NCBI RefSeq assembly: GCF_021533835.1 | Contig: NZ_JAKFYQ010000002.1 | Coordinates: forward strand, 496,001 to 560,000 | Source of the DNA: Synechococcus sp. Nb3U1 | GTDB lineage: Bacteria; Cyanobacteriota; Cyanobacteriia; Thermostichales; Thermostichaceae | Direction: 5' to 3' | DNA length: 64,000 nt | Shown: positions 25,766 through 29,757 of the stretch, piece by piece | How the letters are laid out: each line of letters starts with the position of its first letter | How positions within the stretch are numbered: the first letter of the stretch is position 1 | The notes under the pieces: generated by a model | Databases searched by the model: none | The model's input: the letters and a program-made list of their open reading frames with translations, nothing else | Told to the model about the DNA's origin: nothing | Made by a program: the position numbers and the translations under genes

Positions 25766-26623
25766 ATGCCCTTTGCCCGGAGCTGTGCTTTGAGCCCCAT
25801 CCTGTTCGATACGCCCTCTGCCGGACTGCCTGCTGGGTTGGTGGATACCCACGTTCACCTGAATTACCCCAATTTTGCCGAGGATCTACCCGAGGTTGCC
25901 CAACGCTGGCGAGAAGCCGGGATCCGGCAGTTGGTACACTCCTGTGTCACGCCGGATGAATTTCCGCAGTTACAGGCAATCGCCGACCAGTACCCGGAAG
26001 TGTCTTTATCGGTGGGTTTACACCCCCTAGAGGCACGCCAGTGGCAGCCGGAGATGGCGGCTCAGATTGCCCAGTTGGCGGCTAGCGATGAACGAGTGGT
26101 GGCGATCGGGGAGACAGGGCTGGACTTTTACAAGTCGGATCCGGCAGATATTGAGCTGCAAAAGCAAGCCTTTCAAGCCCAGATTGCCATTGCTCAAAGC
26201 CAAGATTTGGCCCTGATCATCCATTGCCGGGATGCCGCAGAGGCCACCCACCAGATTCTGTCCCAGGCGATCGCCGAAGGGGGGCCGGTGCGGACAGTGA
26301 TGCATTGCTGGAGTGGATCCCCAGCGGAAACCCGCGAATTTGTTGCCCTCGGCTGCTTTGTCAGCTTTAGCGGCATTATCACCTTTAAGAATGCAAAGGC
26401 GGTGCGGGATTCTGCTTTGGAAGTGCCCCTGACCCAACTGCTGGTGGAAACCGACTGCCCCTTTCTGGCCCCTACCCCTTTTCGCGGCAAACGCAACGAG
26501 CCTGCCTATGTGGAGCAGGTCGCCCATACCTTAGCGGATTTGTTACATATTTCCTCCGAGAAACTGGCGGAACAGACCAGCCACAATGCCGCTCACTTGT
26601 TTCGCTTGCCCATATTGGCCTAG
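25766..26623 (+). CDS. tatD: TatD-family metal-dependent DNase
   Basis: 285 residues. VDTHVHLN at about 26 gives the first metal His pair, AIGETGLDFY the bridging Glu/Asp region, LALIIHCRDA and VMHCWSGS further histidines, and LLVETDCPFLAP the last Asp. This is a complete TatD active site. The family has 3'-5' DNase activity and acts in DNA fragment turnover. The first 25 residues are not conserved, so the true start may be slightly later. It precedes the phytochrome gene by 156 bp. Confidence 0.88.
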   Translation: MPFARSCALSPILFDTPSAGLPAGLVDTHVHLNYPNFAEDLPEVAQRWREAGIRQLVHSCVTPDEFPQLQAIADQYPEVSLSVGLHPLEARQWQPEMAAQIAQLAASDERVVAIGETGLDFYKSDPADIELQKQAFQAQIAIAQSQDLALIIHCRDAAEATHQILSQAIAEGGPVRTVMHCWSGSPAETREFVALGCFVSFSGIITFKNAKAVRDSALEVPLTQLLVETDCPFLAPTPFRGKRNEPAYVEQVAHTLADLLHISSEKLAEQTSHNAAHLFRLPILA

Positions 26624-26779: not shown

Positions 26780-29353
26780 ATGAGCGTTGAAATCCTAGCT
26801 TCTGATGTCCGGCCCAATCGAGATGCCCTGATCAATCGCATTACCAATCAAATCCGGCAATCTCTAGAGCTCAGCCAAATTTTGACCGCCACGGTGGCAG
26901 AATTAAGTTCCTTTCTAGGCACCGATCGGGTCAAGTTATACCGCTTTGATCCCGAGGGCCACGGCCAGGTGATCGCAGAGTCCATTCGCGAGGGCCGCCT
27001 CCCTTCGCTGTTGGGCTTGACGTTTCCGGCCAGCGATATTCCCCCTGAGGCCCGCCAACTGTTTCGCCACTCTCAGGTGCAGGTGATTGTGGATGTTGAG
27101 GCCCAGAGTCGCTCCATCAGCCAGCCTGAATATTTGACTTTATCCGCCAAGGTTCAGCCCTTACCGGATCACGAGGTACCTCAGCGACCTGTGGATCCCT
27201 GTCATGTTCATTACTTGAAATGTATGGGGGTAGCCTCCTCTTTGGCGATTCCCCTGATGCATCATCAGAACCTCTGGGGGTTATTGGTCTCCCATCATGC
27301 CGAACCGCGAGCTTACTCGAATGAGGAACTGCAGATTGTGCAGTTGGTGGCGGATCAGGTTTCCATTGCCATTGCTCAGGCAGAATTGCTGAAGCAAGCC
27401 CAACAAAAGGCCCAACAGGAGAGTTTGATCAATCAGATCGCGGCTCTTTTGCATTCTCCGGTTCACCCCAGTTCTACCTTGACGACCGTGCTAGAGCAGC
27501 TGACCGCGGGGTTACACGGGATTGGGGCTCGGTTACACCTATTCACCCCAGAGGGATCCACCCATAGTCACGGCCTACAGCCCCCAACAGGCTATGACGA
27601 TTGGCTGCGAGAACAGCTTCAGAAACAGAGCTTTCTGCCTGTACAGCAGGATCAGTCAGGACTGGCCAAAGTTTGGACCTTGTCGAACCTGAAGTCATGG
27701 CCCCACTTTTTGGAGTCAATCAATCAAACACCTATTCGTGGCTTGATCGTACTGCAGCTCAGTTGGAATGGCCGACAGATGGGTTGTCTGAGCGTATTTC
27801 GTGGGGCCGTGTATGTGGAAACCCAGTGGGCTGGGTATCGGGGCTCGGAGAGCTTTCAGTCAGGGGATCCCCGACAACGATTGCCCTGCATTTCTTTTGA
27901 GGCTTGGCGGGAGTTGAAAATTAATGAGTCTCTCTCTTGGTCGCCAGCGGATGTGGAATTGCTGAGTCGGGTTGGGGTTCATTTGGCCATGTCCATTGCC
28001 CAAAACCACCTCTATCAACAGATTCAAACCCTGAACATTCACCTCGAACAACAGGTGCAAGAACGGACGGCAGCCCTACAGCGCTCTTTGGAAATGGAAG
28101 CTCTCATTAAGCGGGTGACCGACCAAGTGCGGGATAGCTTGGATGAAGCACAGATTTTGCGGGCAGTGGTTCGGGAACTGGCCTTGGGATTGCCGATTGA
28201 GGGTTGTGATCTTTGCCTGTATGACCCAGTTGTAAGAGAAGCCACAGTTCGCTACGAGTACACCGCCTCGTTGCCTGCCGCAGGGGGGCTGACAATCTCA
28301 ATGGCTGAGCATCCAGCCCTTTACCAGCAACTGCAAGCGGGACAGATGACCCAGTTTTGTGATCTGCCAGGACAAGGCTTGATCCCTTCTCGGCAGGGGC
28401 TGGCGCTGTTGTTGTGTCCGTTGCGGGATGATCAGGGGGTGTTGGGGGATCTGTGGTTGGTGAAGGGTGCGCAGGGATCCGAACACAGCTTCGATGAGTT
28501 AGAAATGCAGTTGGTGCAGCAGGTGGCCAACCATTGCGCAATCGCCATTCGTCAGGCCCGCCTCTACCAAACCTCTCTAGAACAGGTGGAGGAGCTGGAG
28601 CGTCTTAACCAGCTTAAGGATGATTTCTTGAGCACCGTCTCGCATGAGCTGCGCACCCCGATCACCAACATGAAGATGGCCATTCACCTGCTCAAAAACA
28701 CCAAAAATCCTCAGAAGCGCTCCAATTATTTAATCGTTTTGGAAACCGAATGTGAGCGGGAAGCCGCGCTGGTGAACGATTTGTTAGATTTGCAGCGGCT
28801 GGAGCTAGGATCCAAGGCCTTAACTTTGGAAGAGCTGTCTTTGGCGGGGTGGTTACCCTCTTTGCTCTATCCCTTTTTGGAGCGGGCAGAGGCGGATCAG
28901 CAAGACCTACAGTGGCAAATCGATCCGGAGGTGGGCAAGGTGATCACGGATCAGGCCAGTCTGGCACGGGTGGTGCAAGAGCTGGTGAACAATGCCTGCA
29001 AATATACCCCTCCCGGACATCGCATTCAGGTGAAGGCGAAGCGTCTTGCCTCCAACCAAGTGCAAATTCAGGTGATCAACGAGGGGATCGAGATTCCCCT
29101 CAAGGAACAGGAGCACATTTTCGATAAGTTTTACCGGGTACCGAATGGGGATCCCTGGAAACGGGGGGGCACCGGGCTGGGCCTAGCTTTGGTGAAACAG
29201 TTGATGGAACGACTTAAGGGCAGTGTATCGGTGGAAAGTGGTCGTGGCAAAACCTGCTTTACGTTGGTGCTGCCCCAGGGATCCCTACCTGGGCAGACCC
29301 CACTTCCACCCCTGACCCGCAGTTATGTCCTGCCTGTGCGAGCCCGCCCATGA
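26780..29353 (+). CDS. PAS-less phytochrome histidine kinase (GAF-PHY-GAF-HisKA-HATPase)
   Basis: 857 residues. There is no N-terminal PAS domain. The bilin GAF domain (about 20-205) has TFPASDIPPEAR (Asp86) and DPCHVHYLKCMGV with the chromophore Cys141. A PHY domain (about 215-412) follows, with tongue motifs WAGYRG and PCISFEAW; the tongue Arg of the usual PRxSF is Cys370. A second GAF (about 440-595) precedes SHELRTP with phosphoacceptor His622 and an HATPase with NNACKYTPPG and GGTGLGLALVK. It resembles hot-spring SyA-/SyB-Cph1 red/far-red sensors, with an extra GAF. DUF309 overlaps its stop codon. No response regulator is adjacent. Confidence 0.9.
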   Translation: MSVEILASDVRPNRDALINRITNQIRQSLELSQILTATVAELSSFLGTDRVKLYRFDPEGHGQVIAESIREGRLPSLLGLTFPASDIPPEARQLFRHSQVQVIVDVEAQSRSISQPEYLTLSAKVQPLPDHEVPQRPVDPCHVHYLKCMGVASSLAIPLMHHQNLWGLLVSHHAEPRAYSNEELQIVQLVADQVSIAIAQAELLKQAQQKAQQESLINQIAALLHSPVHPSSTLTTVLEQLTAGLHGIGARLHLFTPEGSTHSHGLQPPTGYDDWLREQLQKQSFLPVQQDQSGLAKVWTLSNLKSWPHFLESINQTPIRGLIVLQLSWNGRQMGCLSVFRGAVYVETQWAGYRGSESFQSGDPRQRLPCISFEAWRELKINESLSWSPADVELLSRVGVHLAMSIAQNHLYQQIQTLNIHLEQQVQERTAALQRSLEMEALIKRVTDQVRDSLDEAQILRAVVRELALGLPIEGCDLCLYDPVVREATVRYEYTASLPAAGGLTISMAEHPALYQQLQAGQMTQFCDLPGQGLIPSRQGLALLLCPLRDDQGVLGDLWLVKGAQGSEHSFDELEMQLVQQVANHCAIAIRQARLYQTSLEQVEELERLNQLKDDFLSTVSHELRTPITNMKMAIHLLKNTKNPQKRSNYLIVLETECEREAALVNDLLDLQRLELGSKALTLEELSLAGWLPSLLYPFLERAEADQQDLQWQIDPEVGKVITDQASLARVVQELVNNACKYTPPGHRIQVKAKRLASNQVQIQVINEGIEIPLKEQEHIFDKFYRVPNGDPWKRGGTGLGLALVKQLMERLKGSVSVESGRGKTCFTLVLPQGSLPGQTPLPPLTRSYVLPVRARP

Positions 29354-29757
29354 TGGAGCCCAGCCCAGATCAACAAGATCGAGAGGATGTAGCGTTGCGA
29401 TTGGCTGCCGAGCAGTTTAATCGGGGCGAATTTTACGCCTGCCACGACAGCCTAGAAGCCCTGTGGATGGAGGCTATTGAACCGGAGCGGCGCTTTTATC
29501 AAGGGCTATTGCAGACGGCTGTGGCTTACTATCACTTCAACAAGGGCAACCGGCGCGGCTGCATGATCCTGCTGGGAGAAGCCAATGGCAAACTGGCGGA
29601 TTATTTGCCCACCTACGCCGGATGGGATGTGCTCTCTCTCTGGCGAGCCAACCAAAATAGTCTACGGCACCTGTCGCAACTGCCTGAGGGGGCTCCCTTG
29701 CCTTGTCTGGCTATCCCTACTCTGGGTTTACTCGAAAACAAGACTGGGAACCCTTAA
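29350..29757 (+). CDS. DUF309 family protein
   Basis: 135 residues; ATG overlaps the phytochrome stop (ATGA), so translation is probably coupled. FNRGEFYACHDSLEALWMEA and YQGLLQTAVAYYHFNKGNRRGC are the conserved DUF309 motifs (His/Glu-rich four-helix bundle). Function unknown; members are short cytosolic proteins common in cyanobacteria. It ends tail-to-tail with the 53-residue gene at 29754-29915, overlapping by four bases. Confidence 0.85.
   Translation: MMEPSPDQQDREDVALRLAAEQFNRGEFYACHDSLEALWMEAIEPERRFYQGLLQTAVAYYHFNKGNRRGCMILLGEANGKLADYLPTYAGWDVLSLWRANQNSLRHLSQLPEGAPLPCLAIPTLGLLENKTGNP

Follow-up and report, generated by a model that had tools for sequence, protein, structure and literature searches.

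Many phytochromes carry an arginine in the PRxSF motif of the PHY tongue, and a PAS-less phytochrome gene of Synechococcus sp. Nb3U1 encodes a cysteine at this place together with an additional GAF domain in front of the kinase. This raises the question of whether its product is a photoreceptor that differs from SyB-Cph1 in photoconversion or dark reversion, as a sequence-only reading of the locus had expected, or a regular member of the same family. We addressed this question computationally, starting from a window of 64,000 nt, by which we mean the whole stretch of DNA that was analysed; all coordinates below refer to it.

Domain layout and orthology of the window protein

The phytochrome ORF (26780–29353, + strand) starts with ATG, contains no internal stop and encodes a histidine kinase of 857 amino acids, in agreement with the sequence-only reading. 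Its product has the layout GAF-PHY-GAF-HisKA-HATPase. The bilin-binding GAF domain (PF01590, residues 30–198, 26867–27373) begins at residue 30 and no PAS match was returned by Pfam, so that the protein belongs to the PAS-less phytochromes. It is preceded by an N-terminal RIT helix region (residues 12–27, 26813–26860), in which the motif described in PMC11264168 reads NRIT (residues 19–22). Within the GAF domain we located the DIP motif (Asp86-Ile-Pro, 27035–27043), the predicted phycocyanobilin attachment site Cys141 (27200–27202, Cys138 in SyB-Cph1) and the adjoining His142; Tyr54, Phe82, Tyr145 and His172 as well as Ser372 of the tongue complete the set of retained pocket residues. The Pfam match of the PHY domain (PF00360, E 6.6e-8) extends over residues 319–408 (27734–28003) and includes the tongue hairpin, which spans 23 residues from Trp350 to Ser372 (27827–27895) and carries WAG at 350–352 (WxG) and PCISF at 369–373 (PxxSF, 27884–27898). 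The positions that had been read from the sequence for the DIP motif, Cys141 and PCISF were all confirmed by a sequence check. Downstream follow the third GAF domain (about residues 457–590, 28148–28549), the HisKA dimerisation and phosphoacceptor domain (residues 613–676, 28616–28807) with the predicted phosphoacceptor His622, and the HATPase_c kinase domain (residues 724–833, 28949–29278), all three recognized by Pfam. Apart from the window phytochrome, no protein of the genome is matched by the Pfam PHY model, and the genome also encodes a member of the ferredoxin-dependent bilin reductase family.

To which known phytochrome this protein corresponds is indicated by several comparisons. Its top match in the PDB is 8w26, the GAF-PHY chain of SyB-Cph1 (E 4.8e-182), which also ranks first when the predicted model is used in a fold search. 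A protein from another genome of the genus (L012 in genome G004, which we take to be Synechococcus sp. JA-2-3B'a(2-13)) is identical to the aligned 8w26 chain sequence over 420 residues. In a tree of PAS-less phytochromes the six genus proteins compared form a single clade with a support of 100 and a long stem, and the gene order TatD – phytochrome – DUF309 is common to all six genus genomes. In the window these neighbours are the TatD-family gene upstream (25766–26623, + strand) and the DUF309 gene (29350–29757, + strand), which has an overlap of 4 bases with the phytochrome stop. Because of the single, fully supported clade and the shared TatD/DUF309 neighbourhood, and not on the basis of residue 101 (see below), we assign the window protein as a one-to-one SyB-Cph1 orthologue from a different species within this hot-spring genus. 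In the full-length alignment it shares 86% identity with L010, its closest relative, and 87% across residues 1–419, and its identity to SyB-Cph1 amounts to 71% over about 840 residues. A related-locus search of the genome contig collection returned distant relatives only. The gene is under purifying selection: dN/dS against the nearest sister is about 0.1, with 0.09 for the first GAF domain, 0.07 for the histidine kinase and 0.24 for PHY.

The third GAF domain is present in the window protein as the sequence-only reading had it (Pfam E 1e-6, seen when the piece of about residues 457–590 was scanned alone); the accompanying view that it lies outside the SyB-Cph1 layout did not hold, as full-length SyB-Cph1 is composed of GAF-PHY-GAF2-HK (PMC11264168 Fig. 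1A) and L012 contains the domain as well. Nor is an extra GAF domain before the kinase new in a wider sense, because All2699 of Nostoc PCC 7120 has three GAF domains followed by a histidine kinase, the third of which binds bilin (PMC6696110). We compared the third-GAF region (28067–28600) with third-GAF relatives (the set L065–L069) and saw no usual bilin Cys-His context in the window protein, whose third GAF is probably without bilin. All six genus members retain one cysteine of this domain as part of C[DEH]LPGQ; in the alignment it coincides with the Cys-His of the relatives (found in L067, L068 and L069), and the stretch preceding it is about 10 residues shorter than in those proteins. As judged from the alignment, this cysteine may be either a vestigial bilin site or a coincidence.

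The tongue motif inside and outside the genus

In an alignment of the window protein with 130 related loci PCISF falls onto PRxSF, so that it was correctly taken as the tongue motif, and the usual arginine is replaced by Cys370 (codon TGC, 27887–27889). The nearby PRQR (residues 364–367), which had been named as the alternative candidate for the motif, was rejected, as it aligns with a separate and also conserved DxRQ element. The comparison with SyB-Cph1 as an arginine-bearing protein failed, however: the SyB-Cph1 motif is PLISF, both in the literature (PMC11264168) and in the alignment with 8w26, and since this motif lacks the arginine too, its absence cannot separate the window protein from SyB-Cph1. 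We noticed that the text of PMC11264168 gives the tongue change as arginine to isoleucine, while the L012 sequence and the motif PLISF place Leu359 at the arginine position and the isoleucine one residue later. That the window protein represents a distinct class, with photochemistry unlike that of SyB-Cph1 owing to its cysteine and its extra GAF domain, is consequently very unlikely, as SyB-Cph1 shares both the missing arginine and the extra domain; what speaks for such a class is that a cysteine differs from a leucine and local contacts may change.

The loss is a property of the genus. In all six genus genomes compared the tongue arginine is absent and is replaced by Cys in the window protein (PCISF), Gln in L010 (PQISF), Tyr in L011 (PYISF) and Leu in SyB-Cph1/L012, L013 and L014 (PLISF). 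Outside the genus we evaluated 113 PAS-less proteins, mostly from a survey of 291 genomes of the class, and the arginine is kept by 105 of them, with Q (three proteins), K (two), E, S and C in the other eight (genus versus outside, Fisher p 9e-7, a descriptive value that ignores relatedness). Neither the loss of the arginine nor Cys370 is therefore unique to the window protein, as might have been supposed: the former occurs in the six genus members and in the eight outside cases, and the latter recurs in a distant PAS-less phytochrome (L138, G137:C42:73400-75500) that reads PCASF and whose cysteine would represent a separate, independent gain. Of 86 positions with a conservation of at least 90% in the outside proteins, position 370 varies most within the genus, with four kinds of residue and none of them arginine, and the surrounding P, I, S and F do not vary among the genus members. 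The genus tongue is also longer, counting 20–39 residues from Trp to Ser compared to 17–18 in all 113 outside proteins. The simplest history would be a single loss of the arginine in the ancestor of the genus, followed by drift at that position.

The tree of PAS-less phytochromes requires at least seven changes between arginine and non-arginine, and five of the eight outside proteins without arginine sit in one eight-protein clade. This clade (family code f32) contains L093, L102, L103, L107 and L112 together with L088, L101 and L113; the five members that have lost the arginine show Q, K, E, Q and S in its place, and their tongue length is normal. The longest tongue observed is that of the genus member L011 (G002:C49), which counts 39 residues from Trp to Ser, 16 above the window protein, and has its arginine position occupied by Tyr. 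At positions 277 (27608–27610) and 282 (27623–27625) Glu and Trp are 97–98% conserved outside the genus, and R/Q and K/N/R are found genus-wide; these changes are possibly linked to the altered genus tongue. A hydrophobic residue directly follows the arginine position in 13 of 14 arginine-less proteins versus 17 of 105 arginine-bearing PAS-less proteins, which we regard as a lead only, as the association comprises 5 independent pairs with a sign-test p of 0.5–1.

Cys370, Gln101 and the expected photocycle

In canonical phytochromes the tongue arginine forms a salt bridge with the Asp of the DIP motif in the Pr state, and in Pfr the partner of this Asp is the serine of the motif, with the arginine pointing away from the pocket (PMC4689126; PMC6126659). 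The pairing had been placed in the far-red state by the sequence-only reading, which thus reversed the two states. For SyB-Cph1, which photoconverts between absorption at 623 and 708 nm (PMC11264168), Burgie et al. 2024 solved the GAF-PHY structure as Pr; in the crystal the hairpin is helical and Ser361 is bonded to Asp86, and the authors suggest that the lost Asp-Arg salt bridge in the variant motif PLISF loosens the beta hairpin, although they allow for a crystal effect (PMC11264168). The arginine has also been removed in other phytochromes: in Cph1 R472A both Pr and Pfr are still formed and photoconversion persists (PMC13411494), and SaBphP1 R472A restores a stable Pfr (PMC6126659). Since SyB-Cph1 with its leucine photoconverts and Cph1 R472A forms both states, the substitution by itself predicts no gross change in photochemistry. 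Our literature search found neither published spectroscopy of the window protein nor relatives with the same cysteine and measured photochemistry. In an AlphaFold2 model of the window GAF-PHY region the pLDDT falls below 50 at residues 357–369 (block means 53, 46 and 67 for residues 351–380), compared to means of 63 and 81 in an arginine-bearing control relative (its own residues 361–380) with a tongue tip that is also low; because this region is a loop in both proteins and their tongues are of different length, we did not count this contrast as evidence.

One could suppose that Cys370 has a function of its own, such as a state-dependent second thioether bond with the bilin, a disulfide or a sulfenate, which would give a dual-Cys or redox-tuned photocycle. 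The position adjoins Asp86 when the tongue is beta-stranded, in accordance with the role of the arginine (PMC4689126), and the same cysteine has arisen independently in PCASF of the distant L138. However, the sister L010 has Gln and the other members of the genus have Tyr or Leu at this site, and hence no cysteine chemistry is conserved in the genus; the arginine of the same site points away from the pocket in Pfr (PMC6126659); two cysteines in 119 PAS-less sequences are little beyond what drift would give; and the portions of the literature returned by our search gave no pointer to a bilin-bonding cysteine at the tongue arginine site. We consider a functional Cys370 highly improbable, and even more so its specific form, in which bonding of the thiol to the bilin, or its oxidation, is confined to the beta tongue, thereby making the phytochrome of this species light- and redox-gated with L138 as a convergent case. 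Cys370 is most likely one of several replacements, with no particular chemistry attached to it, and it is probably inert because L010, 87% identical over residues 1–419 as noted above, has Gln there.

A second change, which had escaped the sequence-only reading, concerns residue 101 in the bilin pocket. The window protein carries Gln (CAG, 27080–27082), a private replacement of a near-invariant arginine that is present in all five genus sisters (CGG) and in 112 of the 113 outside PAS-less relatives; a single transition, CGG to CAG, would suffice to explain it. Arg101 is a bilin-propionate anchor in SyB-Cph1, where R101A binds less bilin and readily photoconverts (PMC11264168). One of the three bilin-propionate arginines hence differs in the window protein, Arg111 and the lasso Arg136 (133 in SyB-Cph1) being kept. 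Because Gln101 replaces a near-invariant anchor, the bilin occupancy of the window protein could differ from that of SyB-Cph1. Two important positions are accordingly changed, Cys370 by the genus-wide loss of arginine and Gln101 privately, and both missing arginines could be explained by relaxed constraint on the bilin pocket in a protein that is losing its photosensory function. We judge such a decay to be quite improbable, given that the ORF is intact, that dN/dS in the first GAF domain is as low as 0.09, that every other pocket residue checked is retained and that the genome encodes a bilin reductase family member. Furthermore, among the positions with at least 95% conservation across the family the window protein deviates at residue 101 alone, and a family member has 0.98 such departures on average.

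In our opinion the locus is thus quite probably explained as a SyB-Cph1 orthologue, a phycocyanobilin-binding red/far-red sensor kinase whose lock on the Pr tongue was abandoned in the ancestor of the genus, with drift at the position afterwards. According to this explanation the bilin on Cys141 would isomerise under red light, Asp86, Tyr145 and the tongue residue Ser372 would couple the PHY domain to the bilin pocket, and a helical spine would carry the change via the third, probably non-bilin GAF domain to His622 of the kinase. In most phytochromes the Asp-Arg salt bridge keeps the Pr tongue as a beta hairpin. In the genus the arginine would have been lost before the species compared diverged, the tongue would have lengthened, and Cys, Gln, Tyr and Leu would have come to occupy the position by drift. 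In line with the proposal for SyB-Cph1, one would expect a looser Pr tongue with an easier passage to the helical, signalling-like form, and Pr/Pfr photochemistry as such should remain. For the window protein itself we infer red/far-red photochemistry, a loosened tongue lock and an inert Cys370.

Significance and comparison with known phytochromes

The window protein is not a new kind of photoreceptor, as the absence of the arginine from SyB-Cph1 had been described before, and our finding is mostly ordinary, yet it offers a natural test of the role of the arginine. The Asp-Arg lock is regarded as conserved in phytochrome switching and has been dispensed with genus-wide in the six genomes compared. 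Six close and probably heat-stable orthologues together with the scattered independent losses constitute a natural series of arginine-less tongues, and because this series exists, the published idea that loss of the arginine biases SyB-Cph1 to an active-like Pr tongue can be tested without engineered mutants. The value lies in this series rather than in the window protein by itself. In addition, Gln101, private to the window protein, allows a propionate anchor to be tested in a natural variant. The new details, at the level of sequence, are the variability of position 370, the longer genus tongue, the PCxSF motif of L138 and the private Gln101.

Compared with known systems, the closest match is SyB-Cph1 (Synechococcus sp. 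JA-2-3B'a(2-13); PDB 8w26, 2k2n, 2lb5), which shares with the window protein the GAF-PHY-GAF-HK layout, the gene neighbours, the lost tongue arginine with Ile-Ser-Phe kept, and the genus-type Arg111 and lasso Arg; it differs by Leu359 instead of Cys370, by Arg101 instead of Gln101 and by a tongue that is three residues shorter. SyA-Cph1 of Synechococcus sp. JA-3-3Ab, which we take to be L014 (genome G001), agrees in clade, layout and arginine loss and differs in having Leu at the tongue arginine position and 70% identity to the window protein. Cph2 of Synechocystis PCC 6803 (PDB 4bwi), the second-best fold match, is likewise a PAS-less sensor built of GAF plus a PHY-like domain, but its identity in the fold alignment is 29% and its output is GGDEF/EAL and not a direct kinase. 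All2699, called a knotless phytochrome by others, has three GAF-type domains and then a kinase like the window protein, whereas its third GAF binds bilin and that of the window protein lacks the usual bilin context. Finally, Cph1 R472A and SaBphP1 R472A resemble the window protein in that the tongue arginine is gone, and these mutants retain Pr/Pfr photochemistry or have a more stable Pfr, although both are PAS-containing proteins with laboratory changes to Ala.
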